Positions 39,963-58,190 of a DNA stretch of 64,000 nucleotides are shown in pieces. Each line of letters opens with the position of its first letter. Within the stretch, counting starts at the first letter, position 1. The notes below the pieces were generated by a model that searched no databases, was not told the origin of the DNA, and saw only the letters and a program-made list of their open reading frames with translations. The position numbers and the translations under genes are program-made. Location: NCBI GenBank assembly GCA_036504215.1, contig DASXVO010000086.1, positions 62,001-126,000 on the forward strand, in the 5' to 3' direction. The stretch comes from Vicinamibacterales bacterium. GTDB lineage: Bacteria > Acidobacteriota > Vicinamibacteria > Vicinamibacterales > Fen-181.

Positions 39963-41363
39963 CTATCCGTCCATCGGCCGGTCTGGCGGCGTCGGGGCGA
40001 CGAACCAATCCAGCTTCTCGCGCAGGCTGACGACCCCGCCGACAACGATGATCGCCGGCGGCGCGAGCCCGGCACGGCCGGCCTGGTCCGCAATGCTGGC
40101 CAACGGGGCGACGACCGTTCGCTGCGCCGCCGTCGTCCCGTTCTCGATGACTGCCACCGGGCACTGCGGATCGCGACCGTGGTCGAGCAGCTCCTTCGCG
40201 ATGGCCGCCAGATTGTGCAGGCCCATGAAGATGACGAGTGAGGCCGACGATTTCGCGTGACGCGCCCAGTCCACGGGCACCGGGGCGGTGCCGCATGCAT
40301 GCCCGGTCACGAAGACCAGTTCAGACGTGAAGTCCCGGTGTGTGAGCGGAATGCCGGCGTAGGCGGGCACCGCCACGCCCGCGCTCACGCCCGGCACGAC
40401 CTCGTACGCGATGCCGGCCTGCCGAAGCGCCTCGGCCTCCTCGCCGCCGCGTCCGAAGATGAACGGATCGCCGCCCTTGAGCCGGACCACCGTTCGTCCC
40501 GCCTGCGCCTGTTCGATGAGGAGGCTGTTGATCTCGGACTGCGGTCGCGTGTGGTGCCTGTCTCGCTTGCCCACGTAGATCCGGCTGGCACCAGGCTTGG
40601 ATAGATCGAGCAACGACGGATCCACCAACGCGTCGTAGACGATTGTGTCGGCAGCCTGGAGAAGACGACGGCCCTTGACCGTCAGCAGCTCGGGATCGCC
40701 GGGACCGGCGCCGACGAGAAAGACCTTTCCGTTCGACGACCTCGCGGGGGCCGGTTCACGCCTCGCGCGCGCGCCACCAAGTTCCGTGAGAATCGCGTCC
40801 ATCTGCGCCCGCTCCTCGGACGGCGAGCGCCCTTCGGCCTTGCAGCGGTCGCGCAGTTCACCGAGCCGCGCCGCCGCGTCCGCGTAGGCCGGTCCGAACC
40901 GCGCCTCGATCTCTTCCCGGATGTAGCGCGCGAGTGCCGGGCTGCGTCCGTTGGTGGAGATGGCGATGGTCAGATCGCCGCGACGGACAACGGCCGGGCT
41001 GATGAAGTCGCAGAGTTCAGGGTCGTCCACCGCGTTGAACCAGATACCCAGCTCGCGCGCTTCGGCTTGCACGGCACGATTCACCTGGGGATCCGACGCG
41101 GTCGCGTAGGCAAGACGGGCGCCGTGCAGGTCTCCGTTCCGGTAGCCGCGGCGCTCGAGCGTCAACTGCCCTGCGGCGCTCCATCGGTCGACGCGGTCCG
41201 TCACCTCCGGGCTCACGACGGTTACGCGGGCGCCCGCGCCGATCAACGACTCGACCTTGCGTTCCGCGATCGTGCCGCCGCCGATGACCACGACCGGCTG
41301 GCCGCTCAGATCGATGAAGATCGGATGGACCCACGTGGTTCGCCGTTCAGCCCCGACAGTCAT
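39963..41363 (-). CDS. cysG: Siroheme synthase (precorrin-2 dehydrogenase/ferrochelatase fused to uroporphyrinogen-III methyltransferase)
   Basis: 466 residues. N-terminal half: HPIFIDLSGQPVVVIGGGTI is the NAD-binding start of the CysG-A module, with NAVDDPELCDFISPAVVRRG and TNGRSPALARYIREEIE. C-terminal half: VFLVGAGPGDPELLTVKG, VRLKGGDPFIFGRGGEEAEAL and VPGVSAGVAVPAYAGIPLTHR are SUMT signatures. It makes siroheme from uroporphyrinogen III. Position right behind dsrN shows it supplies the DsrAB cofactor. It lies 30 bases downstream of dsrN. Confidence 0.95.
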   Translation of the reverse strand: MTVGAERRTTWVHPIFIDLSGQPVVVIGGGTIAERKVESLIGAGARVTVVSPEVTDRVDRWSAAGQLTLERRGYRNGDLHGARLAYATASDPQVNRAVQAEARELGIWFNAVDDPELCDFISPAVVRRGDLTIAISTNGRSPALARYIREEIEARFGPAYADAAARLGELRDRCKAEGRSPSEERAQMDAILTELGGARARREPAPARSSNGKVFLVGAGPGDPELLTVKGRRLLQAADTIVYDALVDPSLLDLSKPGASRIYVGKRDRHHTRPQSEINSLLIEQAQAGRTVVRLKGGDPFIFGRGGEEAEALRQAGIAYEVVPGVSAGVAVPAYAGIPLTHRDFTSELVFVTGHACGTAPVPVDWARHAKSSASLVIFMGLHNLAAIAKELLDHGRDPQCPVAVIENGTTAAQRTVVAPLASIADQAGRAGLAPPAIIVVGGVVSLREKLDWFVAPTPPDRPMDG

Positions 41364-41393: not shown

Positions 41394-42848
41394 TCATCGA
41401 CCGGCCGCCTTCGTCGCGGCGGCCACCAGCCCGTCCGCCCATGCTGGCGCGCCGAGTGCGTGCAGATGCGTGTAGCTCGCCCACACGTTGCCAACCACGA
41501 TCCCGTCCCGGCCTCCACCGCAGCCCGTGCCGCGCTCGATCGCGCAGGCCGTAGGAAGGTCGCCTGGAACGCGGTCTCCGGCGCCGACGATGCGCGAGTA
41601 GTGGAACTCGTGCCCTCTCAGTTCCTGGCCGCCTCCGAAGAACGGGTTGTCGCGGTCCACGCGAAGCCTGACGTACCCGTGGCCCTGCGGGCGGGAACCG
41701 ACTTCCACGTCGATCGGCAGCACGTCCGCCATGTCGTGACGGCGGCCCTGCCAGATGACGCTCCGGGCCAGGAGCATCAACCCGCCGCACTCCGCGTAGA
41801 TTGGCAGCCCGGCTTTCGCGCCGGCCCGGATCGACGTTCTGAGCGACACGTTGGCGGAGAGGGCGTTCGCATGCGTCTCCGGGAAGCCGCCGCCGATGTA
41901 CAGCGCATCGAGGTGACCAGGCAACGGCTCGCCCGACAGCGACGAGATGGGGACGAGCGTCGCGCCGCGCGCCGCCAGGGCCTCGAGATTTTCGGGATAG
42001 TAGAAGCTGAACGCGGAATCGCAGACGTACCCGATCGTCGGACCGGCACCGACGTCGCGGAACGCGTTCTTCCTGGACGAGTCGTTCGCGCGCCACATCG
42101 CCTGCGGAGGGCATTCCGCTGGTCCGGCTGCGCGGGCTGCCTCAATCAGCGCGCCCACGTTCACGTGTTGTCGGACCGCGTCGAGAGCGACGCGGCCGGC
42201 CTCCTCGATGGCTGGGTGCTCGGCTGGAGTGATGAGCCCCAAGTGCCGCCCCGGTAACCGCGCATCGTCCAGCCGGGGAATCGCACCCAGCACGGGAATG
42301 CCGCACTCGCGCTCGATCGCCTGCCGTACAACCGATTCGTGGCGCTCGCCCGCCACCTGGTTCAGGATGACGCCCGCCAGCGCGAGATCCGGGTCGAGCG
42401 CCTGGCAGCCGCGCACGCACGCGGCCGCGGTCCGCGTCATCTTCCGGACATTCAGGACGAGCACGACAGGCGCGGCGAGCGCTTTCGCCAGCACGGCGGT
42501 ACTGTCCGTGCCAGCGACGTCGGCCCCGTCGAACAGGCCCCGGTTGCCTTCGATGAGGTTCAGCGCCTCGTCGCGCGCTGCAGAGGCGGACCGTCCGTCG
42601 AGCGCGTGGCGGAAGAACGACGCGACCGCGCCCGCCGTCCCCATCAGGAACGTGTCGAGATTGCGAACCACGTCGTCGGACGCCCATCGCAACCAGGCGG
42701 CGTCGATGTAATCCGGTCCCTTCTTGAAGGCGCGAACACGGCAACCGGCTGCCCGCGCAGCCAGTGCCACGCCAATCGACACGAAGGTCTTGCCGGCATC
42801 CCCAGAGAGGCCCGCAATCACGAGACGGGGAAAGGCTTCGCCGTTCAT
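41394..42848 (-). CDS. dsrN: Siroheme amidase DsrN (cobyrinate a,c-diamide synthase family)
   Basis: 484 residues. The start at 42848 is chosen because it forms an ATGA overlap with the dsrP stop. The N-terminal dethiobiotin-synthetase-like ATPase has the P-loop VIAGLSGDAGKTFVSIGVAL and Mg site KKGPDYIDAAWL, VEGNRGLFDGAD-type sequence follows (IEGNRGLFDGADVAG), and the glutaminase half has YAECGGLMLLA with the catalytic Cys and HGYVRLRVDRDNPFF with GHEFHYSRI. The family amidates corrin carboxylates; in dsr operons the homologue DsrN is understood to amidate siroheme for DsrAB. The location between dsrP and cysG decides for DsrN over CobB, although a cobalamin role is possible. Confidence 0.85.
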   Translation of the reverse strand: MNGEAFPRLVIAGLSGDAGKTFVSIGVALAARAAGCRVRAFKKGPDYIDAAWLRWASDDVVRNLDTFLMGTAGAVASFFRHALDGRSASAARDEALNLIEGNRGLFDGADVAGTDSTAVLAKALAAPVVLVLNVRKMTRTAAACVRGCQALDPDLALAGVILNQVAGERHESVVRQAIERECGIPVLGAIPRLDDARLPGRHLGLITPAEHPAIEEAGRVALDAVRQHVNVGALIEAARAAGPAECPPQAMWRANDSSRKNAFRDVGAGPTIGYVCDSAFSFYYPENLEALAARGATLVPISSLSGEPLPGHLDALYIGGGFPETHANALSANVSLRTSIRAGAKAGLPIYAECGGLMLLARSVIWQGRRHDMADVLPIDVEVGSRPQGHGYVRLRVDRDNPFFGGGQELRGHEFHYSRIVGAGDRVPGDLPTACAIERGTGCGGGRDGIVVGNVWASYTHLHALGAPAWADGLVAAATKAAGR

Positions 42849-44038
42849 GATCTGCCCGGGCACTCCTCGCTCCTGGCCCCCGACTCCTGGCTCCTGACTC
42901 CCGAGGTAATCCTCAAGAACGCCGTCACCATCAATGCGCCGAGCGCCCAGATGCCGATGGTAATCGTCAGTTCAGGGAACGTTGGCGAGTAGTCGAACAC
43001 GGCTCCAAGCGCCGAAGGCACGAGGCCGCCGACGATCAGGCCGAGCCCCTTGTCGATCCACAGACCGACAAACGTCGCCAGGCACGCGACAACCAGCGTC
43101 CCCTCCCTGGCCCGCGTTCGCGGCGCCAGCAGCAGCCCGAGCGCGAGCGCCAAGAGCCCGGCGGAGCTCCACATCCAGGGCACCAGGGCGGCGTGGCCCG
43201 CGAGGCCCGCATAGAGATACCGGAAGTGCGCCACGTGCTCCGGAACCTGGCTGTAGAAGACCGTGAACACCTCGACCAGGACGAGGAATACGTGAACGGT
43301 CACCGCGTACGCGACAAGCACGGCCAGTTTCTGGAGCGCCTCCCGGCCGACATCGACGAGCCTCAGTCGACGGGCCACGAGGCACAACAGGATCAGCAGC
43401 GCCGGACCGGCTGCGAACGCCGATGCGAGGAAACGCGGCGCGAGGATGGCGGTCAGCCAGAATGACCGTCCGGGCAGGCCGCTGTAGAGGAACGCGGTGA
43501 CGGTATGGATGCTGATCGCCCAGGGGATCGACACGATGATCACGGGCCGGATCCACCGAGGTGGTGCGATGTCGTTCCTCTCGGCTTCGAGCGTCACGCG
43601 GGTGATCAGCACATTGAGCAGCAGATAGCCGGCCAGCGCCGCCATGTCCCAGAACATCATCGATCCGGGCGTGGGATGGAGCAGCACGTTGAGCACGCGC
43701 GAGGGCCGCCCCATGTCGACCACGATGAACAGGACGCACATCGTCACGGCCGCTATGGCGAGGAACTCGCCGAGAATCGTGACGCGGCCGAACACACGGA
43801 AGTCGTGAAGGTAGTAGGGCAGCACGACCATGACGGCAGACGCAGCCACGCCCACGAGGAACGTGAACTGGGCGATGTAGAGGCCCCAGACGATGTCGCG
43901 GCTCAGCCCGGTGATGCCCAGGCCGGCCTGCAGCTGCAGCCAGTAGCACCACGCGCCCACGCACACGACGGCCAGCAGCGCGCCGGTCCACGCCCAGTAT
44001 CCTCGTCCGCCGCGCAGCGCTTTCTCGAGCATGAACAT
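42845..44038 (-). CDS. dsrP: DsrP, NrfD-type quinone-interacting membrane subunit
   Basis: 397 residues, AGGA site upstream. About ten hydrophobic helices (for example YWAWTGALLAVVCVGAWCYW, TILGEFLAIAAVTMCVLFIV, WIRPVIIVSIPWAISIHTVT) match the NrfD/PsrC family. DsrP anchors the DsrMKJOP complex and exchanges electrons with the quinone pool together with DsrO and DsrJ. The C-terminal RSQESGARSEECPGRS is an added low-complexity tail encoded by a repeat. It follows dsrO after 66 bases and overlaps dsrN by ATGA. Confidence 0.93.
   Translation of the reverse strand: MFMLEKALRGGRGYWAWTGALLAVVCVGAWCYWLQLQAGLGITGLSRDIVWGLYIAQFTFLVGVAASAVMVVLPYYLHDFRVFGRVTILGEFLAIAAVTMCVLFIVVDMGRPSRVLNVLLHPTPGSMMFWDMAALAGYLLLNVLITRVTLEAERNDIAPPRWIRPVIIVSIPWAISIHTVTAFLYSGLPGRSFWLTAILAPRFLASAFAAGPALLILLCLVARRLRLVDVGREALQKLAVLVAYAVTVHVFLVLVEVFTVFYSQVPEHVAHFRYLYAGLAGHAALVPWMWSSAGLLALALGLLLAPRTRAREGTLVVACLATFVGLWIDKGLGLIVGGLVPSALGAVFDYSPTFPELTITIGIWALGALMVTAFLRITSGVRSQESGARSEECPGRS
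42862..42905. repeat. Tandem CTCCTGGC-like words at the end of dsrP
   Basis: ACTCCTCGCTCCTGGCCCCC is followed by ACTCCTGGCTCCTGACTCCC. These near-repeats are translated as the polar tail RSQESGARSEE of DsrP, which looks like extra sequence added after the last membrane helix. Confidence 0.55.
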
Positions 44039-44104: not shown

Positions 44105-44842
44105 CTAGATGAGGTAGTACACCTGCGGCCTGGTCCCCAACTCCGGTTTGCGGCGCATCGTGTAGCGTGAACCTGTCAATTGTCGAATCGGCGACGCCGG
44201 ATCACGGAGGTCGCCGAAAACGATCGCCCGTTCGGGGCAGGCCTCGACGCACAACGGCTGTTCGCCGCGCGCCAGCCTCTCGTCGCAGAACGTGCACTTC
44301 TCGACGACGCCCTTGGTCCGCGTGGGATACCCGGGGTCCAGCGTGGTGACGTGCGGGCGCGGGTCGACCCAGTTGAAGGAGCGTGAGCCATACGGACACG
44401 CCGCCATACAGTAGCGGCAGCCGATACACCGATGCTCGTCCATCATCACCACGCCGTCCTCACGTTTCCACGTCGCCCTGGTCGGGCAGACGCGAACGCA
44501 GGGAGGGTTCTCACAATGGTTGCAGAGCACGAGCACGGGGCGTCCACCTAGCGGCGCCATGCCCTCCCCACCATCCTCGCTGGCGAAGGCGTCCTCGGCC
44601 CGCTCCTTCCAGATCCACTTCACCTCGTGCTCGCGGTCCGGGATCGGCGGTACATTGTGCGCCCGATGACACGCGTCGATGCAGGCACGGCAACCGTCCT
44701 TTTGCAGACATTTGCCCGGATCGATGGCCATCGCCAATCGACGCCCGCCCGTACCAGCGGTTGCGCAGCCCATGATGGTGCCGGCCGCCGCCCCGAGGGT
44801 CGAGAGACTTGCCAGACGGAGGAAGCATCGGCGCGTGGTCAT
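44105..44842 (-). CDS. dsrO: DsrO, periplasmic four-cluster ferredoxin with Tat signal
   Basis: 245 residues. The start overlaps the dsrJ stop as ATGA. TTRRCFLRLASLSTLGAAAG is a twin-arginine signal. Cys groups follow for four [4Fe-4S] clusters: CLQKDGCRACIDACH, CNHCENPPCVRVCP, CIGCRYCMAACPYG and CTFCDERLARGEQPLCVEACP. DsrO passes electrons between DsrJ and DsrP on the outer face of the membrane. Size and motif spacing match known DsrO. Confidence 0.95.
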   Translation of the reverse strand: MTTRRCFLRLASLSTLGAAAGTIMGCATAGTGGRRLAMAIDPGKCLQKDGCRACIDACHRAHNVPPIPDREHEVKWIWKERAEDAFASEDGGEGMAPLGGRPVLVLCNHCENPPCVRVCPTRATWKREDGVVMMDEHRCIGCRYCMAACPYGSRSFNWVDPRPHVTTLDPGYPTRTKGVVEKCTFCDERLARGEQPLCVEACPERAIVFGDLRDPASPIRQLTGSRYTMRRKPELGTRPQVYYLI

Positions 44843-45219
44843 CGTGATTCCTTGCCGGCCACGTGGCACTCCCAGCACGCGGGTTTCACGCTGACGTACG
44901 CGTGGCAGCGGTCGCAGAAACCGGCCTTCTGGTGACAGCCCAGGCACGTGCCGGTCAGGCTCATCCGAAACTGCCGACCATCGTTCGTCGTCATCATCCG
45001 GACACCCGTACGCACGACCGAGTCGCGCCAGTCGGCCAGCAACCGCATGTGCGTGCGTCGCATGACGTCGGTCGGCGCCACGCACTTCGTCTCGCCCACG
45101 GGACGAACCAGAACGGGCCCGTCTGACACCGGATGGCTGGCCCGCGCGCTCCAGGCGGGCCAGGTGACCGCCGCCAGGAACCCCACGAGGCCGGCGAGAA
45201 TCAGCGCCCGCTCACGCAC
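44839..45219 (-). CDS. dsrJ: DsrJ, triheme cytochrome c
   Basis: 126 residues. An N-terminal helix (ALILAGLVGFLAAVTWPAW) is a signal or membrane anchor. Three heme-c sites are visible near the C-terminus: CLGCH, CDRCH and CWECH, the hallmark of DsrJ. ETKCVAPTDVMRRTHMRLLA holds the conserved Cys thought to be an unusual heme ligand. The gene overlaps dsrK by eight bases and dsrO by four. Confidence 0.95.
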   Translation of the reverse strand: MRERALILAGLVGFLAAVTWPAWSARASHPVSDGPVLVRPVGETKCVAPTDVMRRTHMRLLADWRDSVVRTGVRMMTTNDGRQFRMSLTGTCLGCHQKAGFCDRCHAYVSVKPACWECHVAGKESR

Positions 45220-46831
45220 GGTCCGCCCCTTCGACGTGCGCGAGCGGGTCCCCGCGCAGATCCGTCGTCCTGGTCCTCTCGCCCTTCATGACGAGGGCGT
45301 TGCCCACCAACTCGTGTACACCGGCCACCTCGACGCCCGGCACCCAATACTCCAGTAGCGGCGGCAGCGTCGCCTTGTCCACGGCGCAGATACAGGCCAG
45401 CAAGTTCGTGCCGAACCGGTCGCGCACGTATTTCACGGCACTGGCGCGCGGCAACCCACCGCGCATCCGCATCTCGAAATTCTCGTCGGTGCCGAGCCCC
45501 GCGCCGCTGCCGCAGCAGAAGGTCTGCTCGCGGATCGTGTTCTCAGGCATCTCGTGGAAGGCGTTGAGCACGTGGCGCAGGATGAACCGCGGTTCCTCGT
45601 ACAATCCCATGGCCCGTGCCGGGTTGCACGAGTCGTGAAACGTCGCGTTCCAGTGGTCGTTGCGCGACGGATCGAGCGACAGCTTCCCGTGCTCGATCAG
45701 GTCTGCCGTGAACTCGCAGATGTGCAGCATCCTGGTCGATGCCGCGTGCTCGAACCGGGTCCCCGTGGCCGGCGAGACGGGCACCTCGAGGAAGTCCGCC
45801 GGCCCGTTCATCGTGTCCATGTATTGATGGACGACGCGCCACATGTGTCCGCACTCGCCACCGAGAATCCACTTCACGCCAAGACGCTTCGCCTCCGCGT
45901 ACAGCTTGGCGTTGAGGCGCTTGACCATCTCGTGGGATGAGAAGAGGCCGAAGTTGCCGCCCTCGGAGGCGTACGCGCTGAAGGTGTAGTCGACGCCCGC
46001 CTCGTGCAGCACCATCAGGTAGCCGAGCAGCGTGAAGTAGTGCGGCGACCCGAAGTAGTCGGCCGACGGAACGACGAGCAGGACCTCCGCGCCTTTCCGG
46101 TTGATCGGCGCGTCGACCCGGATGCCCGTCAACTCCTCCAGTTCGTCCACGGCGAAGTCGAGGCTGTCCTTGAAGCCGTGCGGCTGGATGCCGAGATGGT
46201 TGCCCACACGGTCGCAGTTGGCCGCCGGCTCGATGACCCAGTTGATGTTGCAGCCGACGAGGTTCAGCAACTCGCGGCCGATCATCGTGATCTCGGCCGT
46301 ATCGATGCCATAGGGGCAGAAGACCGAGCAGCGGCGGCATTCGGTGCACTGATAGAAGTAGTAGAACCACTCCTTCACGACGTCCTCGGTCAGGTCCCGC
46401 GCGCCAGCCAGCGGTCCGAGAAGACGCCCCGCGACGGTGAAGTAGCGTCGATAGACCGACCGGATCAACTCGGCCCTGAGGACGGGGGTGTTCTTGGGAT
46501 CGCCCGAGCCGAGGTAGAAGTGGCACTTGTCCGCGCAGGCGCCACAACGAACGCAGATGTCCATGAACAGCCGGAAGGACCGGTAGCGATCGAGCCGCTC
46601 CTTCATGCCGTCGAGGATGATCTGCTGCCAGCCGGCCGGAAGCTTCCAGTCGGCGTCGGTCGGCTGCCATTGCCGGGGGTTCGGCAGGCCGAGGTATTCG
46701 AGGCTTCGAGCGTGCGCCGCGTGGTTGAACGTGCCCTTGCGGAACTCGACGAACGGATCGCGCCAGGCGCGGCGTGGAAGCGCCTGCTCAACGGCGGCGA
46801 GGTGTGCGGGATTCGGCTTGTCTAGGGACAT
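45212..46831 (-). CDS. dsrK: DsrK, HdrD-like catalytic iron-sulfur subunit
   Basis: 539 residues, start MSLDKPNPAHLAAVEQALPR overlapping dsrM by ten bases. Two ferredoxin-type sites (CVRCGACADKCHFYLG and CTECRRCSVFCPYGID) are followed by the CCG domain: FHDSCNPARAMGLYE, FCCGSGAGLGTDENFEMRM and LLACICAVDKATL, which should hold the special [4Fe-4S] cluster of HdrD-like enzymes. DsrK is thought to reduce the DsrC trisulfide or disulfide in the cytoplasm with electrons from DsrM. Length and order match the family. Confidence 0.95.
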   Translation of the reverse strand: MSLDKPNPAHLAAVEQALPRRAWRDPFVEFRKGTFNHAAHARSLEYLGLPNPRQWQPTDADWKLPAGWQQIILDGMKERLDRYRSFRLFMDICVRCGACADKCHFYLGSGDPKNTPVLRAELIRSVYRRYFTVAGRLLGPLAGARDLTEDVVKEWFYYFYQCTECRRCSVFCPYGIDTAEITMIGRELLNLVGCNINWVIEPAANCDRVGNHLGIQPHGFKDSLDFAVDELEELTGIRVDAPINRKGAEVLLVVPSADYFGSPHYFTLLGYLMVLHEAGVDYTFSAYASEGGNFGLFSSHEMVKRLNAKLYAEAKRLGVKWILGGECGHMWRVVHQYMDTMNGPADFLEVPVSPATGTRFEHAASTRMLHICEFTADLIEHGKLSLDPSRNDHWNATFHDSCNPARAMGLYEEPRFILRHVLNAFHEMPENTIREQTFCCGSGAGLGTDENFEMRMRGGLPRASAVKYVRDRFGTNLLACICAVDKATLPPLLEYWVPGVEVAGVHELVGNALVMKGERTRTTDLRGDPLAHVEGADRA

Positions 46832-47766
46832 GCGTCGGGATCCCTCTCGAGCGGCAGGCCCGCCGTTCGCATCTTCTCTCTGAACTCGTCCTCCCACTCC
46901 TGATAGGTGTGAACCTTGACAGGGGCGTTCCACGGGTTCACGTGGCGGCGACGCCGGCTGTCATTGGCCTGGTTGCGCGTGGGGCTGAGCCACACACCCG
47001 CCGCGTGCATCAGCTTGGTGAACGGGAACATTCCCACACACAACGACACCGACAGCAGGTGCAGGACGAACCAGGTGCCCGGCGCGGCCGGCGCGGTCGG
47101 CCGCAACGCGGCCAGGCTCAACGTGAATTGCTCGATTGCCGCCAGGTCCGGCCGCACGACGTAGCGCATCACGACACCCGTGCCCGCGCTCGCCAGGAGC
47201 AGCAGCAAGACGACGTAGTCGATTGGGAGCGACAGATAGCGCAGCAGCGGATTCCAGAGCCGGCGGACGAGCAGGTAGGTCAACGCACCGAGGACGACGA
47301 CATCCGAGACATACCAGACCGGTGATCCGACCTCCAGAAACCCGTCGACCGACGCCAGCACTGTGGCCACGACGGGCGCCGGTTCCACGAACAGCCGCAG
47401 GTGCCTGAGGACGATCACCAGCAGCGCCCAATGAAACGCCATCGCCCCGAGCCAGAGCGCCTTCCGCTCGATGAACGCCAGTCGCCCGACCGGGCCGCCG
47501 GCAGGCTGCAGCCGCCGGACGCGCGTATCCCTGAACAACGAGCGGAAGAGCAGCACCTCGAGCAACATCCGGCCCGCGACGCCCAGCCAGCCCCGGGGGC
47601 TCTCCAGCCGGCCCGGCGCAATCCAGGTCAACGATGCCTGCTGACCGCTCGTCGTGGGAATCCGGAACGGCACGGGCGTCGCTGCCCAGCGCCACACACG
47701 CCACGCCACGCCGCCGAGAAACAGCGCGGCGGCGGCATACGGCAACACGATGAGCAGCACGGTCAT
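46822..47766 (-). CDS. dsrM: DsrM, membrane cytochrome b subunit
   Basis: 314 residues. Six or so hydrophobic helices with His residues suited to heme b (AFHWALLVIVLRHLRLFV, TWFVLHLLSVSLCVGMFPF) and the signature loop LSPTRNQANDSRRRRHVNPWN near the end, which is typical of DsrM/NarI-like subunits. It passes quinol electrons to DsrK. It starts four bases inside the dsrT-like gene and overlaps dsrK. Confidence 0.95.
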   Translation of the reverse strand: MTVLLIVLPYAAAALFLGGVAWRVWRWAATPVPFRIPTTSGQQASLTWIAPGRLESPRGWLGVAGRMLLEVLLFRSLFRDTRVRRLQPAGGPVGRLAFIERKALWLGAMAFHWALLVIVLRHLRLFVEPAPVVATVLASVDGFLEVGSPVWYVSDVVVLGALTYLLVRRLWNPLLRYLSLPIDYVVLLLLLASAGTGVVMRYVVRPDLAAIEQFTLSLAALRPTAPAAPGTWFVLHLLSVSLCVGMFPFTKLMHAAGVWLSPTRNQANDSRRRRHVNPWNAPVKVHTYQEWEDEFREKMRTAGLPLERDPDACP

Positions 47767-48143
47767 TTCACCAGTCGTTCCATGAGGCGACGCGCGACGT
47801 AGGTGCGGCGCGAGGCCTCGTGTTCGCGAATCGCACGGATGCGGTCGCGGTGCGCCTCGAACAACCGCTCAGCGACGTCGCGCATGGTTGCGAGACGCGA
47901 CCGCACCAGCGCCGCGTCGCCCGCGGCGGCACGCTCCCGGGCGGCGCACTCCACGGAGGCCAGGACGTCCACGGCCTCGGCGGAAGTCGATACCTGGACG
48001 GCGCGCAGGCGCGCGACCGGATCGAGCGCCCGCCAGACGATCGCCTCGTCCATGGGACCGAGCACCTGCTCGAGGAGGACCGGCAGGTGCTCGCGCAAGA
48101 TGGCATCGACCGGGTTGTGAAACGGATCGTGAATCTCCGCCAT
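47763..48143 (-). CDS. dsrT: DsrT-like protein (RsbRD N-terminal domain type)
   Basis: 126 residues from an ATG at 48143. The core DPFHNPVDAILREHLPVLLE and LDPVARLRAVQVSTSAEAVDVL matches the RsbRD-type helical domain, whose usual wording is F.NPvg and iRIRAVQ.fspSqAv. Genes of this kind sit directly before dsrM in many sulfur-metabolising organisms and are called dsrT; their role is not known. The N-terminal helix usually found before the NPV motif is missing here. A start at 48251 would add 36 arginine-rich residues and was judged less likely. Overlaps dsrM by four bases. Confidence 0.65.
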   Translation of the reverse strand: MAEIHDPFHNPVDAILREHLPVLLEQVLGPMDEAIVWRALDPVARLRAVQVSTSAEAVDVLASVECAARERAAAGDAALVRSRLATMRDVAERLFEAHRDRIRAIREHEASRRTYVARRLMERLVK

Positions 48144-48287
48144 CCGGTGCCCCGCACGCCGCCGGTCGCTCGACCGAGTCGCCGGCATTCGATCTCCCAT
48201 TGGCAGGCCTGAAGGCACCCGCGGCATCTCCCGGCGGGTTGCCCGTGCCATCGACCCGACGCCGTTACGCGCGGTGGTGACCGGCCG

Positions 48288-48536
48288 CTACTCCGCGATT
48301 TCGCGTTGGGGCAGCTCGATGTAACTGCCTCCGAAGTACGTGTAGATGCAGCGACCCGAATCGACCAGCTGGCGGATCGCCTCCTTGCACGTCTCCTTGC
48401 TGCAGCGATCGGCGCCGAACTGCTCGATCACCGCCTTCGTCACGTCAGTCGGCTTCAGCTTGCGGACGCCGGCTGCGTCACTGATCATCCGGAACATCGC
48501 GTCGGCCACTTGCTCGACGGTCACTGGAGTGGACAC
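48288..48536 (-). CDS. dsrD: DsrD, small winged-helix activator of DsrAB
   Basis: 82 residues, three bases after the dsrB stop. The fold reads helix (VEQVADAMFRMISDAAG), helix (KLKPTDVTKAVIEQFGAD), recognition-like helix (CSKETCKEAIRQLVDSG) and a wing (CIYTYFGGSYIELP). DsrD is reported to stimulate sulfite reduction by DsrAB and is found mainly in reductive-type dsr clusters. Sequence similarity to the sulfate-reducer form is modest by eye; position and length settle the call. Confidence 0.8.
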   Translation of the reverse strand: MSTPVTVEQVADAMFRMISDAAGVRKLKPTDVTKAVIEQFGADRCSKETCKEAIRQLVDSGRCIYTYFGGSYIELPQREIAE

Positions 48537-48539
48537 GGT

Positions 48540-49604
48540 TCATCCTTTCAGGTGCACCGAGCGCTTGAATGTCGTCTCCGCGTGACGGAAGTCGTCGATG
48601 TGCTGCTTGGTGAACTCGATGCCCGTCATGCGGAAGAATCGAGGCCATCCAATGCGCTCGATCCACTCGCCCATCCGCTCGTAGTGGCGCGCATTCGCCG
48701 CCCACACGTCCACCAGCCTGGTCACCGCCTCCACGACCTCCGGCCAGCGGGGGGGATTGTTCGGGAGGAACGGGATGGCGAGCTTGGAAAAGGCCGGTTC
48801 GGAACGTGCGTTGCTCACCTTCCCGCCGACCCAGATGGAGACGCCGTCGTTCAGCGCGTCGTTGAGCGGCATCGCCGGACAGACGGTGAAGCAGTTGCCG
48901 CAGAACATGCAGAGTTCCTCGGCCACTTCGACGCTGTCGTGACCGTCCTTTCGGGTCGGCCTGATGGCCGCCGTCGGGCAGGAAGCGACCACGGTGGGCA
49001 GCTCGCACACCTTCGGCAGCCGCTCCTGGTTGATCTTCGGCGGCCGCCGATGGATGCCGAGGATGGCGATATCCGAGCAGTGCACCGCGCCGCACATGTT
49101 CACGCAGCACGCCAGCGCCACGCGCAGCTTGCCCGGCAGCGCCATCGTCGTGAAGTGGCCGACCAGTTCGTCCATCAACGCCTTCACGATACCCGACGCA
49201 TCGGTAGCCGCCGAGTGACAGTGGATCCAGCCCTGCGTGTGCACGATGTTCGAGATCGAGTGACCCGTTCCGCCGACCGGAAACCCCCTCGCGGCGAGGT
49301 CCGCGACGAGTGGCTCGATCTTCGCGGGATCGGTCAACAGGAACTCGATGTTGTGGCGGCTGGTGAACCGGAGATACCCGTCGCAGTACGTGTCGGCCAG
49401 GTCGCAGATCTCGCGAATCGTCTGCACACTCAGCAGCCGCGGCGATCCGGCGCGGACGGTGTAGAGCCGATCGCCCGATTCGGCGACGTGCACCAGGACT
49501 CCGGGCCGGGGGATCTCGTGGTACCGCCATTTCCCGTAGTTCGCCTGGATGACGGGCGGCAGGAACTGACCGTAGTGGGGCGGGCCGATGTCGGTCTTGC
49601 GCAT
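48540..49604 (-). CDS. dsrB: Dissimilatory sulfite reductase beta subunit
   Basis: 354 residues. The siroheme/[4Fe-4S] region reads [20 protein letters not shown] and [20 protein letters not shown], then a ferredoxin module with [16 protein letters not shown] and [28 protein letters not shown] and [15 protein letters not shown] are conserved substrate-pocket segments. It pairs with DsrA in an alpha2-beta2 enzyme that reduces sulfite, or works in reverse, using DsrC as sulfur carrier. It follows dsrA after 29 bases. Confidence 0.97.
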
Positions 49605-49633: not shown

Positions 49634-50824
49634 TTACTTGGGTTCTTCCTCGAAGTACTCCTCGTAGAACACGTACGGGTTCTCGCGAGGATGCTTCACC
49701 ATTTCGGGCCGCGGCTCGAGGCCAATCGCCTCGAGGAAACTCCCCAAGCCGACCCGCTGGATGAACTCGCCGACGCGTTCGCGGTTCTTACCTTCGTCGG
49801 CCCAGAGTTCGAGGATCTTGCCGATGAGTTCCTTCAACTCGGTGTAGGGCGGCTCGATCTTCATGAACGGCACGAGCACGGACGACAGCATGGCGCCCGA
49901 CACAATCGGCGCCTTGCCTCCGATCAGCAGGCAGGCGCCCCGCTCCCGGCCGGGTCGTAGCGCCTTCGGCAGAACGTTGATGCAGTGCATGCACCGCGCG
50001 CACGCGGCGTTGTCGATCGTCAGCGTCTTGTCGTCCCAGGTCAGGCACCTCGACGGGCACAGGTCGCACACGTCGCGGCGGACATCCACCCCGGCCCGGA
50101 CGTAGTCGGCGAGCGCCGCTTCGTCCACCTCGATCGCATCGCGCCACGTGCCGATGACGCTCAGGTCGGCGCGCGCGATGGCCGCCACGCAATCGTTCGG
50201 ACACCCCGACGCCTTGATCTTGAACTTGTAGGGCAGCGAGGGACGGTGGATCTCGTCCTGGAAGTGCCTGGTCAGATCGTAGGTCAGCGCCAGCGTGTCG
50301 AAGCACGCCCACTCGCATCGGGCCGGTCCGACACAGCAGCTCGGCGTTCGGATGACGGATCCCGACCCGCCGAGGTCGAACCCGTTCTCGGTCAACTCTT
50401 CGAACGCCGGCTCGAGCTCTTCGGTCTTCGTGCCGAGCAGGATGACGTCGCCGGTCGCACCGTGCAGGTTGGTGAGTCCCGAACCGTGCCTCTCCCAGAT
50501 GTCGCAGATCTTCCTGAGCGCGTCGGTCTTGTAGAACCAGCCAGCCGGGTGATTGACGCGCATCGTGTGGAACTGCGCGACGTCCGGGAACTGCTCGGGT
50601 ACATCCGAGTAGCGCCCTATGACGCCGGCGCCGTAGCCTCTCACGCCAACGACCCCGCCGTGCTTCCAGTGGCCCACGCGGTCTTCGTATGACAACTCGA
50701 CGACGCCGAGCAGACCTTCAGCCATGGGGCTGGTTTCCGCGGCGCGCTTCATCTCGCGAACGAAACTGGGCCACGGACCGGTCTCGAGCTCGTCGAGCTT
50801 CGGAGTGGGTTTCTTGTCGGACAT
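49634..50824 (-). CDS. dsrA: Dissimilatory sulfite reductase alpha subunit
   Basis: 396 residues. The start [20 protein letters not shown] is supported by GAGGAA and by sitting 17 bases after the upstream stop. [20 protein letters not shown] and [20 protein letters not shown] provide the Cx5C and Cx3C ligands of the siroheme-[4Fe-4S] centre. [20 protein letters not shown] with [16 protein letters not shown] is the inserted ferredoxin domain. Typical DsrA length and ending ([12 protein letters not shown]-like). Together with dsrB it forms the catalytic core of the cluster. Confidence 0.97.
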
Positions 50825-50841: not shown

Positions 50842-51897
50842 CTATCTCATCTCGATGAATCCCGTCGGGCACTGTTCCGCACACTTGCTGCAGCCCCGGC
50901 AGAACTCGAGCCTGAAGCGATACGGCTGCCCCTTCTCGACCGGCTTGATGACCGCCTGATCGGGGCAGTACTTCCAGCAGTTGTCGCACTCGGCGCACGC
51001 GCCGCAACTCAGGCATCGCCTGGCTTCGGCCACGGCCTGTTCAGGCGAGAGTGCTCCCTCACCACGCGGTTGGCGCGCGTTGTGCTCGAACTGGATCTGC
51101 GCCGTCGTGGACGGCGGCCGCGGCGGCGGCGGTTCGACGGCCACGCCCCTGATGTCGGCGTCGAGCAACTCGGCCGCGCGCCGCCCGAAGTGGATTGCCG
51201 CGGGGATGCCCGCAGGTGAGGTCTTGTGGCCGTCCTCGTAGATCCTGGTCGCAATGACCCGACCATCCTCGGGCCGGGAACCGTGCCCGACAAATGTCAC
51301 GCCCAGCGCGAGGATGCGGCCGATCTCCGCGTCGAGCACGTGGCGCGGCAGGCACGCCGCATCCGGCCCGTACCGAAGCTCGCCACCCGGTTCCTCGTGC
51401 GGATCCACCATCCTGACGGCGTAGCCACGACGCGCCAGCTGGTAGGCGGCCGACAATCCGCCCGCGCCGGCGCCAACCACCGTCACAGGTTCGGGCCGGG
51501 GTTCGCCGACGCAGCGGGACAGCGACCAGCCTCTCGACACGGCCGTCTCGCCAATCGCCCGCTCGACGCCGTTCACGGCCACGGCGCCGTCGTATCCGTC
51601 GCGATGGCACCGGCTCTCGCAGTGATGCGGGCAGAGATACCCGCAGACCGCAGGCAGCGGGTTGCGTTCGGCAATGACGAGGAAGGCCTCGTGAAGCGCC
51701 TCGTCCACACTCAGCCCGCGGCCTTCCGACCGGGCGAGCACGGCGAGAAAACCCCGCACGTCGGTGTCGTTGGGGCACGCGTGCTCGCAGGGCGGCTGCC
51801 TGGCGACCAACTGCGGGCGCAACGACGTGCCCTCGCGAGCCGCCGCCCCAAGGCCGCTTCGCGCGCCGAGCTTCCTGACCTTCTTCACGATCGGCAT
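50842..51897 (-). CDS. dsrL: DsrL-like iron-sulfur flavoprotein lacking the NAD(P)H-binding domain
   Basis: 351 residues, roughly half the usual DsrL length. N-terminal GltD-type cluster domain: [16 protein letters not shown] and [23 protein letters not shown]-binding fold: [20 protein letters not shown] and [20 protein letters not shown]. The chain then goes from [10 protein letters not shown] almost directly to [19 protein letters not shown], so the central pyridine-nucleotide domain (~200 residues) is absent. The C-terminal ferredoxin is intact: [20 protein letters not shown] and [18 protein letters not shown]. DsrL normally links NAD(P)H to DsrAB. This form should still carry FAD and clusters but take electrons from another donor. 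Confidence 0.75.
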
Positions 51898-51904
51898 GAC
51901 GACC

Positions 51905-52792
51905 CTACTTGCCCCACTGCCCGTCCTTGACGCGGTCGATCGGCCCCGCTCCGCGCGGCGACGGCCGCGTGGCCTGCCGGGTCTTGAGACTGAACCGGTC
52001 TCCCGACGTCAGGAAGTAGAACTTGCCGGCGGGCGGGATCTGGCGCTGCCGGTCGTAGATGGCCACGTACGATCGGCCCAGCACCTGGAACTCGTCGCCC
52101 TGGACGACAATCGCGGTGTCCTCGTCGAGGCCTATGCCGAGCAGGTCCGGACGCGCCTCGATGAGGGCGACCAGATCGAACTGCCGGTTGCGCTTCAGCA
52201 GGTGCTGATCAATCGCCACCTTCTTCACGAACGCGAGCCCCTGCTGGTGGTCGCCCATCATGATCTCGGCGCCCTTGGTGTCGCCGCGCGCGAGGAAGTC
52301 GCCCTGAATCGTGGCGCCAGCCGAGGACCCGCCGATCACGCCACCCCGATCGAGCAGCGCGAACAGTTCCTTGTGCGTCAGCGTGTCGAGGTACGCGTCG
52401 GCCAGACGCCACTGCCGGCCGCCCTCGAAGAACACGCCGCGCGCCTGGCGGATCGGCTCGACGAACGCCGGCGAGTCGGCCACCATCCGGTCGCGCGTGT
52501 GCAGCACGGTCAACTTCGTCGCCCCTGCGTCCCGGAAGGCCTTCAGGCCCGGAAACGTCTGGTCGTACTTGTCGGCCTCGCCGGCCGTCGGGATCACGAC
52601 GATGGGCTGATCGGGACCGCCGGCAAGCTCGAGGAACCGCTTCAGAATGGCCGGGTCCTTCATCGCGCCGCCGACGATGACCAGCGAACCCTTCGAGGGG
52701 CCGAAGTCGGCGCCCCGAACCGTTGGCACACCAGCCAGCAGCAGCACCGTGAACGCCGCCAGCACACTCACCGCTCTCACGCCCTTGTTCAT
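51905..52792 (-). CDS. Secreted cyanophycinase-like serine peptidase (S51 family)
   Basis: 295 residues with the signal peptide GVRAVSVLAAFTVLLLAGVP. SLVIVGGAMKDPAILKRFLE opens the family fold; GGVIGGSSAGATIQGDFLAR has the nucleophile Ser, IDQHLLKRNRQFDLVALIE the catalytic His, and GIGLDEDTAIVV the acidic residue. Cyanophycinases split multi-L-arginyl-poly-aspartate into beta-Asp-Arg dipeptides; the exported form would act on external polymer. The start overlaps the regulator stop by four bases and the stop is seven bases before the dsrL-like gene, so it is embedded between regulator and dsr genes. Confidence 0.88.
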   Translation of the reverse strand: MNKGVRAVSVLAAFTVLLLAGVPTVRGADFGPSKGSLVIVGGAMKDPAILKRFLELAGGPDQPIVVIPTAGEADKYDQTFPGLKAFRDAGATKLTVLHTRDRMVADSPAFVEPIRQARGVFFEGGRQWRLADAYLDTLTHKELFALLDRGGVIGGSSAGATIQGDFLARGDTKGAEIMMGDHQQGLAFVKKVAIDQHLLKRNRQFDLVALIEARPDLLGIGLDEDTAIVVQGDEFQVLGRSYVAIYDRQRQIPPAGKFYFLTSGDRFSLKTRQATRPSPRGAGPIDRVKDGQWGK

Positions 52793-53700
52793 GGTTCCGC
52801 CTTCATCCTTCCGCCTTCATCCTTGACCCTTCCGCCTTCACCCTTGCCCCTGGCAACCGTCATCCTGGTTCTGGAGCACACCCACACGAGCACGGCTGTG
52901 TCAGTGGGCGAGGGATTCACCCAGCGGTGCCCGCGGGTGCTCTCGAACCAGCAACTGTCCCCGGCGCGCAGGTCCAGGTGCTCGTGCTCGCCCAGCCACA
53001 TCTCAATCGAACCTGCCAGCACGTAGAGTAGTTCCTCGCCGTCGTGCACATACGGGCCGGCGCTGCCCGAACCCGGTGCCGCGCGAAACAACATCGACTC
53101 GAGCTGGCTCGACGTGGGCGACAGCAGTTCCATGTCCACACCGGGGTGCGCCTGGAGCACCTGTCGATCGCCAGCCGACAACCGGTGGCTGGACTGGCCC
53201 GGCAGATCGAACAGTTCCAGCACCGACGTGTTGTAGACCGTGGCGAGGCGTTGAATCGTCGCAACCGACGCGGTGGCCTGCGACCGTTCCACGGCACTGA
53301 GAAATCCCGCCGAGATCCCGGCGCCGCGGGCCGCGGCGGCAATCCGCAACCCTCGCTGCCGGCGCAGGCCGCGCAAGGTACGTCCCAGCGTCGCCAACGC
53401 GTAGCTGGCCGGATTGGACGGCTCGTCACGCGTCCCGAGCGCTTCCTTGATGGCCGGCACGTTGAGTTGACGCACGTCGCGCAGGTGCTTGATCCGCTTG
53501 AGCACCGACAGGGAATCCTGCGTGTAGAGGCGGTAGCCGCCGCGGTTCCGGACGGTGGTCACCAGACCGGCGCGCTCCCAGAGGCGCAACGTGGACGGGC
53601 TGACGCCCACAATCCTGGCGGCCCGACCGACGGTCAGCGGCGAGCGGCGGGGATGGTGGGGGTCGATCCGGGCGGTCCGTTCGTAGGGCGCAACTGGCAC
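52789..53700 (-). CDS. Transcriptional regulator: MerR-type HTH, XRE-type HTH and cupin domain
   Basis: About 303 residues from a GTG at 53700; an in-frame TTG at 53730 is an alternative. LTVGRAARIVGVSPSTLRLW and GGYRLYTQDSLSVLKRI are a MerR-type winged helix. LGRTLRGLRRQRGLRIAAAA with AGISAGFLSAVERSQATASV is a second, XRE-type HTH. HDGEELLYVLAGSIEMWLGE and LRAGDSCWFEST form the cupin sensor. This triple arrangement is known among regulators of amino-acid or polyamine use. The ATGA overlap with the cyanophycinase gene suggests it controls that gene, and read-through would link it to dsr. The tail is repeat-derived. Confidence 0.85.
   Translation of the reverse strand: MPVAPYERTARIDPHHPRRSPLTVGRAARIVGVSPSTLRLWERAGLVTTVRNRGGYRLYTQDSLSVLKRIKHLRDVRQLNVPAIKEALGTRDEPSNPASYALATLGRTLRGLRRQRGLRIAAAARGAGISAGFLSAVERSQATASVATIQRLATVYNTSVLELFDLPGQSSHRLSAGDRQVLQAHPGVDMELLSPTSSQLESMLFRAAPGSGSAGPYVHDGEELLYVLAGSIEMWLGEHEHLDLRAGDSCWFESTRGHRWVNPSPTDTAVLVWVCSRTRMTVARGKGEGGRVKDEGGRMKAEP
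52796..52853. repeat. Tandem TTCCGCCTTCATCC words at the end of the regulator gene
   Basis: TTCCGCCTTCATCC occurs twice, then TTCCGCCTTCACCC, with short spacers. It is translated as the basic/acidic tail GKGEGGRVKDEGGRMKAEP of the regulator, beyond its cupin domain. Confidence 0.6.
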
Positions 53701-53710
53701 GGCGGCCCGA

Positions 53711-53740
53711 ACCTTACCACAAAAGTGCAAGGTTTCACAA
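53711..53740 (-). promoter_or_regulatory. Candidate promoter of the regulator-cyanophycinase-dsr run
   Basis: On the minus strand TTGTGA (53740-53735), 18 bases, then TAAGGT (53716-53711). The predicted start point (~53704) is only a few bases before the GTG at 53700, which would make the message nearly leaderless. Confidence 0.35.
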
Positions 53741-56112: not shown

Positions 56113-57984
56113 TCAGAACTCCAGCAACGACTCGTGCGTCCCTTTGTGCATCTCGTACCAGAAATCGAGTGCCGCTTCACGCCGGTCCTTCTCGAAGCGG
56201 CTCAACCAGTCCGCCAGTTCTGGCCGCTCGACGTGCCCAACGTCGCGGCGCCGCCTGAGGAACTCGTACACGAGGTCCGCATTGCGGCCCGCCTCCCAGA
56301 ACACCGAGGCGTTGCGGCTGTTGATGCGGCCCGCGGTCAGCTTCACCTTCTCGACGAACTCCTTGCCAAGGCCGTACAGCGCCTGCACGATCTCCTCCCC
56401 CATCTCCTCGGCCCACCCACGGTGGAAGCGGCAGATCCCGAGGTTGTCCATCAGCAGCTCCTGCACGAGCCGTTCGGCATTCATCCGTCCGAGTTGCCGG
56501 GGAGGGAGGAAGTCCGGCCCGTAGTACATGTAGTACTTGCCCATGATCGGCATCGGCGCGAGGGCGCCTGGCGTCCAGTACTGGTTCGGGACCATCCAGC
56601 CCTTCCGGGCGAACGCGGCGTGCACGAACAGATCGAGGACCTGCCGCCCCTTCACGCGTGCGAGCCGCCGCGCGCGGCGCCGCGGTCCCTGGAGCAGATC
56701 GACATGGCGCGACACGATCGCGTCGAGCATGGCGACGCCCAGATCCGCGTTGTGCGCGGAGTCCTCGACCACGCGGAAGCCATCCGGGGTGAAGACCGGC
56801 TTCTCGGTCGCGCCAACGTCGTCCGGCGTCAGCACGCCCTCGTGCACGCACTCGAACAGCCACGAGAGCACGCCGCCCGCAGCAATCGCGTCGAAGCCCA
56901 GGGTGTCCGCGCGGTGCGCGAGCCGCTCCGCCGCCCGCTGGTCGAAGATGCCGCACTGCGGGCCCATCGTCTCGTAGGGCTCGTAGTCCTTCTTGAACTC
57001 GCCGCGCATCTTCTTGCACACCGCGGAACAGGGTTCGCCGCACGTGTGCTGCTGTCTGGCGTCGATGGTCTCCTCGTTGAACTGCTTGAGGTAGTGCTCC
57101 AGGACGAGCGTCCGGTGGAGGTCGACGCGCTCGCTCTCGCTCATGTAGATGCTGCGGTAGTTGAACGACAGCATGGCACCGCCCAGCGTGGCGAAGTTCG
57201 CGCCGAGCGTCCCGCCCGTCGAGAGTCTCGGATCGAAGCGGTACTTCGTCGTCGCTTCGAAGTCCTTGGCCGCGAGCCGCTTCTGGAAGCGCACCTGGAA
57301 CCACTCGTCGGCCACCTTGCGGTCCCGGAAATCCTCGTCCACCACCGTGCCGCCGTAGATCACCGCCGCGATGTTGTGCTCGTGGAGCATCCGCGAGCCG
57401 AACCCACCACGCCCCGCCCACGTGTCAACGTCGGTGAGCTTGCCGTTCCCGTCGATCGGCACCGACACGATGGCGCCGAAGTCGGTCGCCTCGGCGGCGG
57501 GCCCCACGGCGAGAATCCGAGGCGCCTGCGCATAACGTGCGGTGAACCGCTCGTGGACGTGATCGAGCACGGCATAGACACCCAGGCGGCCCGACGCCCA
57601 GACGCGCGTGAGGTCCACCGGCTCGAGTGAAACGTCGATCTCCTCGCCGTTCTGACGGTTGAGGATCAGCACCGACGGCCTCGCGGCACAGCCGACCAGC
57701 GAGAGCATGTTGATCCCCAGGTTGTCGAACACCAGCCCGGCACCGCCCATCGACGACACGTAGAACCCGCCCCAACAGGGGGAGAATCCGGTGACGATCA
57801 GCCGGTTCGATCCCGGCAGAATCGAGCCGGCCAGCAGGCCCACTCCAATGTTCAGGCTGTTGAACCGGCCGGTGAGATGCAGCCCGAGGTCCACGGGACC
57901 GAAGAAATCGCCGACGGGGTACTTCGCCACGCGGTAGTAACCGGTGCCGGCGTCGACGAAGAGGACTTTCTGCTGGACGTCCAT
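56113..57984 (-). CDS. Tungsten-containing aldehyde:ferredoxin oxidoreductase (AOR family)
   Basis: 623 residues; start MDVQQKVLFVDAGTGYYRV has GGAGAG upstream, and longer frames run into the hairpin leader. NRLIVTGFSPCWGGFYVSSM and YGGTVVDEDFRDRK-type segments belong to the N-terminal pterin domain. The [4Fe-4S] ligands are in TCGEPCSAVCKKMRGEF and the late LLMDNLGICRFHRG, matching the CxxCxxxC and DxxGLC motifs. The family oxidises aldehydes to acids with ferredoxin, using a tungsto-bispterin, or reduces acids in reverse. Homologues vary in substrate, which is not predictable here. Confidence 0.9.
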   Translation of the reverse strand: MDVQQKVLFVDAGTGYYRVAKYPVGDFFGPVDLGLHLTGRFNSLNIGVGLLAGSILPGSNRLIVTGFSPCWGGFYVSSMGGAGLVFDNLGINMLSLVGCAARPSVLILNRQNGEEIDVSLEPVDLTRVWASGRLGVYAVLDHVHERFTARYAQAPRILAVGPAAEATDFGAIVSVPIDGNGKLTDVDTWAGRGGFGSRMLHEHNIAAVIYGGTVVDEDFRDRKVADEWFQVRFQKRLAAKDFEATTKYRFDPRLSTGGTLGANFATLGGAMLSFNYRSIYMSESERVDLHRTLVLEHYLKQFNEETIDARQQHTCGEPCSAVCKKMRGEFKKDYEPYETMGPQCGIFDQRAAERLAHRADTLGFDAIAAGGVLSWLFECVHEGVLTPDDVGATEKPVFTPDGFRVVEDSAHNADLGVAMLDAIVSRHVDLLQGPRRRARRLARVKGRQVLDLFVHAAFARKGWMVPNQYWTPGALAPMPIMGKYYMYYGPDFLPPRQLGRMNAERLVQELLMDNLGICRFHRGWAEEMGEEIVQALYGLGKEFVEKVKLTAGRINSRNASVFWEAGRNADLVYEFLRRRRDVGHVERPELADWLSRFEKDRREAALDFWYEMHKGTHESLLEF

Positions 57985-58036
57985 GCTGCTTACTCTCCGT
58001 GCCTGCGGGCAGACACGCCCACAGCCACTGCGAATC

Positions 58037-58065
58037 CCGATCGGCGGCGGGCCTCCGCCGATCGG
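58037..58065. repeat. 11-bp hairpin in the divergent leader
   Basis: CCGATCGGCGG (58037-58047) and CCGCCGATCGG (58055-58065) are perfectly complementary around a seven-base loop. It lies 52 bases upstream of the AOR start and 125 bases before the amidohydrolase start, and may be an operator or a dispersed palindrome. Confidence 0.6.
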
Positions 58066-58190
58066 CTCGGGCAGCGCGAGGCGTATCCCCCTGCTCGGCG
58101 GCGGCGCGGGCCGGACCCGCGACAGAGTACCACGCTTTCCCTTGACCCGCGCGGCGTGGGAAGGCAGCATACCCGCGGAGGAACGGCACC

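Follow-up and report, generated by a model that had tools for sequence, protein, structure and literature searches.

Repeated loss of the NADPH-binding module and retention of the iron–sulfur domains in DsrL proteins of soil and peat Acidobacteria

The question raised by this locus is what a DsrL protein does once the domain that binds its electron donor is gone. DsrL has been defined by a list of domains that includes an NAD(P) domain; their order is an N-terminal two-cluster domain, an FAD domain with the NAD(P) domain embedded in it, a linker of about 100 aa and a C-terminal two-cluster ferredoxin. Full-length DsrL-2 uses NADPH only, and this use has been related to the YRR motif (Loeffler et al. 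2020, PMC7596348). In the window analysed here (a stretch of 64,000 nucleotides from the genome of a Vicinamibacterales bacterium), positions 50842–51897 of the minus strand encode a DsrL-derived protein of 351 aa, with an ATG start and zero internal stops. The original prediction was that this protein had lost its NAD(P)H-binding domain with the reading frame preserved.

Profile matches are confined to residues 25–203 and to the C-terminal ferredoxin (residues 300–350), and no profile matched an embedded NAD(P)-binding domain anywhere in the protein. The NF009410/PRK12771 model (NAD(P)-binding protein) scores 251.2 bits, below its curated cut-off of 516, and its match spans only profile positions 38–205 of 566. 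Alignment with full-length acidobacterial DsrL (553–576 aa) puts the loss at about 200 residues, the low end of the 200–300 first proposed. The missing stretch is the entire NAD(P)H domain (GGGDTAID, YRR) together with the second FAD segment, “VFAGGD”. As predicted, the third FAD strand (ALGVTFVG, residue ~205) is followed by the closing helix (GRRAAELLD, residues 238–246).

The remaining parts, all on the minus strand, can be followed in order. The N-terminal two-[4Fe-4S] domain (residues 24–112; 51562–51828) is identified by a Fer4_20 match and by alignment. Its ligands were assigned by aligning the protein with the NfnB ligands given in PMC7596348, and every position is retained: T24/R27, C37 and C97 belong to the distal cluster, and C41, C89, C93 and E112 to the proximal one. 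The first FAD (Rossmann) half (residues 136–205; 51283–51492), recognized by profile match, alignment and model, keeps GAGAGG, the acid closing strand 2 (D165) and GGELRYG. The deletion junction (51208–51282) marks where the chain lacks the NAD(P)H domain and the FAD “GGD” strand; a short strand (RVIA) takes their place. The closing helix of the FAD domain (residues 231–250; 51148–51207; alignment and model) is followed by a weakly constrained linker (residues 251–290; 51028–51147) and the C-terminal two-[4Fe-4S] ferredoxin (residues 291–351; 50845–51027), which matches its profile and retains every cysteine. The cluster domain and the ferredoxin are thus as intact as had been claimed; of the FAD motif, also described as intact, the GxGxxG half stands and the GGD half is lost in the genus.

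Structure modelling gives a similar picture. The AF2 model has a mean pLDDT of 65, with about 84–95 across most of residues 131–200; the cluster loops are poorly modelled, and the input alignment included full-length relatives, which can bias it towards the fold of the parent protein. It contains a small Rossmann core made of strands 137–141, 160–164, 201–204 and 213–216 and helix 231–250. On residues 49–472 of P. furiosus NfnI, 209 residues of the model align (Z 18.8); a full-length DsrL used as control aligns over 394 (Z 31.2). The short protein thus has the full-length framework minus one module. Fold matches to NfnB/NfnL, NfnA of NfnABC and the GltD family (glutamate synthase small subunit) reach Z 15.5–23.7, with NfnABC and StnABC the best. 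NfnB/NfnL, NfnA and GltD share the Fe-S domain and the FAD Rossmann half with short DsrL; unlike it, they carry an embedded NAD(P)H domain and are not linked to DsrAB.

The short gene opens a dsr cluster on the minus strand, in the order dsrL(short)-A-B-D-x-M-K-J-O-P-N-cysG, with a complete dsrMKJOP set and dsrL co-directional with dsrAB. It lies 17 bp before dsrA (49634–50824; TIGR02064, 566.5 bits, cut-off 392.85), which is followed by dsrB (48540–49604; TIGR02066, 519.9 bits, cut-off 341.5). Between dsrB and dsrM, a dsrD-like gene (48288–48536; PF07106) encodes a small winged-helix protein that has homologues in the dsr loci of relatives; its name rests on position and similarity, and it matched no DsrD model. 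The next gene (47763–48251) encodes a small conserved protein with no Pfam match and no assigned function, whose counterpart precedes dsrM in most acidobacterial dsr clusters. Then come dsrM (46822–47766; NF038037, 394 bits), dsrK (45212–46831; NF045796, 711 bits), a dsrJ-like multiheme cytochrome gene (44839–45219; three heme motifs, read from the reading frame), dsrO (44105–44843; NF045797; the ORF call extends to 45085, with the true start near 44843) and dsrP (42845–44038; NF045798). Profile matches identify dsrN (cobyrinate a,c-diamide synthase-like, 41394–42863) and a CysG-like siroheme synthase gene (39963–41363).

In the window genome, dsrC is found on a separate contig (G000:C37:84916-85215, L096); its product ends in KGACKVAGLPKPTGCV, with both C-terminal cysteines present. 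Its neighbours there read like class V aminotransferases or cysteine desulfurases. G002, a relative of the same genus, differs in having dsrC within the dsr cluster. A search of the window genome for aprA found none, so the acceptor would be sulfite, not sulfate, and the organism looks like a sulfite reducer rather than a sulfate reducer. A search of the same genome for a further, full-length DsrL returned only other GltD-like proteins.

Upstream of the cluster, a peptidase S51/cyanophycinase-like gene (51905–52792, minus strand) stops a few bp before short dsrL, and an S51 peptidase gene likewise lies just upstream of short dsrL in G002 (L030 11828–13996). The peptidase gene and the dsr cluster may share a transcript; a promoter and terminator scan around the start of short dsrL found nothing. 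Between the cluster and a beta-lactamase-like gene, 52789–53730 (minus strand) reads as a fusion of a MerR-like helix-turn-helix, a second helix-turn-helix and a cupin. Further away, 30181–33669 (plus strand) encodes a 1162-aa protein with two regions resembling acyl-CoA dehydratase activase/benzoyl-CoA reductase activase.

Since the window comes from a draft genome, a collapsed assembly or a decaying full-length dsrL might produce such a gene. This explanation is almost certainly wrong. The same short form is present in two other MAGs of the genus, as the original prediction had proposed to check: a 359-aa protein in G002 (Chersky.3_23, JADGOB010000037), 64% identical to the window protein, and a 362-aa protein in G001 (fen_299, PMKG01000230), 62% identical. 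Pairwise pN/pS within the genus is 0.41–0.52 for the whole gene, 0.28–0.35 in the FAD half and 0.25–0.28 in the C-terminal ferredoxin; the linker reaches about 0.65–1.14. Conserved short forms also occur in 17 genomes of another family, f26. Recurrence in other genomes together with purifying selection leads to rejection of the artefact and pseudogene reading: short dsrL is under purifying selection and is neither a collapsed repeat nor a pseudogene, and the in-frame loss is a conserved trait of three MAGs of the genus. In the same comparison, dsrA is more constrained (pN/pS 0.11–0.16), and short dsrL evolves several times faster (pN 0.17–0.26 vs 0.05–0.08 for dsrA).

A survey of about 1,250 genomes, covering the family, class and phylum of the window organism and two orders, with DsrL length read from the open frame, found short DsrL in three settings. 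The first is the window genus (G000, G001 and G002). The second is G005, a single genome from another genus of the same family, where a 427-aa DsrL in the usual place lacks the NAD(P)H domain and retains the strand FVFVATG and FAGGD. The third is f26, a family of another acidobacterial order, where 17 genomes of four genera have a short DsrL of 395–402 aa without the NAD(P)H domain and GGD and with the strand AVFFAxG retained. Seven other f26 genomes have a full-length DsrL (548–554 aa), and full-length and short genes occupy the same syntenic slot, A-B-L-C-x-M-K-J-O-P (in nearly all full-length genomes). All short forms retain the Fe-S ligand cysteines while the NADP motifs are gone. In the f26 short forms, constraint on the first FAD half matches that in full-length DsrL (pN/pS 0.17–0.28 vs 0.10–0.28) and is strongest on the ferredoxin (0.04–0.14). 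A dsrM2K2 pair was considered as a marker of the short form; it occurs at many short-form loci but also at two full-length ones, and is not diagnostic. Among 82 genomes of the phylum of L069, no short DsrL was found.

Three of the seven full-length f26 proteins (G780, G730 and G865; L122, L121 and L124) retain the domain but have a decayed NADP site, in which GAGGTACD replaces GGGDTAID and the YRR stretch has been deleted. Their NADP domain is 58–61% identical to that of the intact G727 protein, compared with about 81–89% for the N- and C-terminal parts. Its pN/pS is 0.30–0.44 vs 0.24–0.26 in intact proteins of the window's order and 0.32–0.35 in intact f26 proteins, a modest relaxation of constraint, with the NADP domain evolving faster than the rest. 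These three proteins look like a stage on the way to losing the module, or else like a loss that arose independently in place.

The number of losses was assessed with DsrL trees built on shared columns only. The window genus, G005 and f26 fall in three places, and the AU test rejects holding all short forms together (p 2.8e-4), and with it a single origin. Joining the window genus with G005 (7e-7) or with f26 (1.1e-5) is rejected as well; joining G005 with f26 is not (p 0.16), so the data force two losses only. At least two independent losses are therefore required. Three are likely, because the breakpoints differ among the window genus, G005 and f26, and because the DsrAB tree, from a short search only, places G005 beside G004/G090 (support 91) and away from f26. 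The window group itself lies within the acidobacterial DsrL-2 clade (support 100/99 and 100/98) on a long stem, its exact place within DsrL-2 being unsure.

G004, another member of the window's genus, encodes a DsrL of full length (553 aa) at the usual position downstream of dsrABD (L031), and its DsrA is only 67% identical to that of the window. Since the window DsrAB stands apart from that of G004 and dsrL has moved ahead of dsrA, the whole dsr cluster of the window lineage may have been acquired laterally or replaced.

The short protein is not a DsrL by the published definition; it is a new, recurrent variant derived from DsrL-2. It is encoded by a complete gene in an organism with dsrAB, it is unlinked to subunits of pyruvate/ketoisovalerate:ferredoxin oxidoreductase (its neighbours are dsr genes and the S51 peptidase gene), and it branches with DsrL-2, not with other GltD-like proteins. 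With DsrL-2 of Desulfurella amilsii and Acidobacteriota, the NADPH:acceptor oxidoreductase that partners DsrAB, it shares the N-terminal Fe-S domain, first FAD half, closing helix, ferredoxin and dsrAB neighbourhood. It differs from DsrL-2 in lacking the NAD(P)H domain, the YRR motif for NADP(H) and the second FAD segment with its GGD strand, in its length (351 vs about 553 aa) and shorter linker (about 40 aa), and in gene position (upstream of dsrA, vs downstream of dsrB/dsrD). The f26 and G005 forms resemble it in the missing NAD(P)H domain and retained Fe-S parts, and differ from it in breakpoints and tree places.

No description of a truncated or NAD(P)-domain-less DsrL was found in the open-licence literature; since the published definition demands an NAD(P) domain, short proteins would have been discarded. 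Hausmann et al. 2018 describe peat Acidobacteria with dsrM2K2, dsrDN pairs and dsrL-dsrC, an arrangement like that of f26. They also call acidobacterial DsrL “shorter” than that of A. vinosum, with “the same functional domains”. Short forms of the f26 kind may be present unnoticed in those data. As an analogue only, PMC12796991 describes a thioredoxin-reductase flavoprotein that uses ferredoxin instead of NADPH; it differs from short DsrL in having no Fe-S domains and in acting on thioredoxin.

With the NAD(P)H domain absent, NADPH could not be bound in the manner of DsrL-2, and use of NADPH by the short protein appears very unlikely, in line with the original prediction. FAD binding is doubtful in the window genus, because the FAD GGD strand is lost; judged from its motifs, it is more likely in G005, the sole short-form genome that retains GGD. 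A separate NAD(P)H-binding flavoprotein might instead dock on short DsrL and supply the module in trans, an idea favoured by the multi-subunit relatives of the fold (NfnABC and StnABC, the best fold matches). A gene of this kind, split off within the operon, was seen neither in the dsr cluster of the window nor in those of the f26 short-form genomes, which leaves the idea a slim chance.

The best explanation, to which we give an even chance, is that the NADPH-binding module was deleted in frame from a DsrL-2 ancestor and that the descendant delivers electrons from another donor to DsrAB for sulfite reduction. What is left would carry up to four [4Fe-4S] clusters, two N-terminal and two in the ferredoxin, around a shrunken Rossmann domain. 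The short protein would dock to the DsrAB encoded just downstream and act as its electron-delivery subunit, with sulfite as the probable acceptor. A low-potential one-electron carrier, ferredoxin or flavodoxin, would replace NADPH. An electron-transfer partner of DsrAB is the most likely role, because the Fe-S ligands and the ferredoxin are under the strongest constraint, in f26 especially. The position beside dsrAB, in a cluster that has the full dsrMKJOP set and a dsrD-like gene, and the recurrence of the loss in three genomes of the window genus, in G005 and in 17 f26 genomes, are also in favour. Against it stand the modest confidence of the AF2 model and the faster evolution of short dsrL than of dsrA, which is expected under relaxed function too.

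Regarding the donor, the earlier suggestion of electrons from ferredoxin or another donor is plausible and is strengthened by the repeated losses; it is still an inference. Across genomes, no gene for a ferredoxin or for a ferredoxin-reducing enzyme goes with the short form, and no new oxidoreductase gene lies beside dsrL at the f26 short-form loci. Within the window, reduced ferredoxin might come from the aldehyde:ferredoxin oxidoreductase-like protein (GAPOR/AOR family) encoded at 56113–58170 (minus strand), 4 kb from the dsr cluster; such a gene was not seen near short dsrL of G001 or G002.

The role of the clusters is also where a structural alternative enters. In Allochromatium vinosum, DsrL-1A transfers electrons from NADH to sulfite without needing its Fe-S clusters, whose role has been called “enigmatic” (PMC7596348); as these clusters are dispensable, a cluster-only route to DsrAB is without an experimental precedent that we found. 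The short protein might then carry no electrons to DsrAB and persist in a structural, assembly or regulatory role beside it, which would also fit its faster evolution relative to dsrA and the loss of the FAD GGD strand in the window genus and f26. A mere scaffold would not need the Fe-S cysteines, yet all short forms retain them, and the ferredoxin remains the most constrained region both in f26 and in the window genus; we consider this alternative unlikely.

Electron flow might also run the other way, from DsrAB during sulfane-sulfur oxidation or disproportionation to a non-pyridine acceptor; in which direction acidobacterial Dsr pathways run is a matter of debate (PMC6018796). A dsrD-like gene lies beside dsrAB, and dsrD is a marker of the reductive direction (PMC10591310). 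The Fe-S clusters of A. vinosum DsrL have low potentials, from -330 to -390 mV (Loeffler et al. 2020, PMC7596348), which suit donation better than acceptance. No DsrEFH gene came up among the annotated genes of the window. The oxidative reading accordingly has a small chance, and donor-driven sulfite reduction is preferred.

Soil and peat Acidobacteria have repeatedly dropped the NADPH part of DsrL and kept its iron–sulfur parts, a pattern that implies another electron source or another job. Tentatively, and at somewhat less than even chances, the NADPH module may be an optional input, and DsrL of reductive Acidobacteriota may at its core be an Fe-S relay that ferredoxin can drive. The module would have been excised at least two and probably three times and be decaying in place in a further lineage, leaving a ferredoxin:DsrAB oxidoreductase that drives sulfite reduction. 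The repeated losses form a natural deletion series that separates NADPH and Fe-S functions, in proteins that can be expressed and assayed. For annotation, NADPH-driven sulfite reduction should not be read from the presence of dsrL in an acidobacterium, and published curation that requires an NAD(P) domain leaves these short DsrL proteins out.
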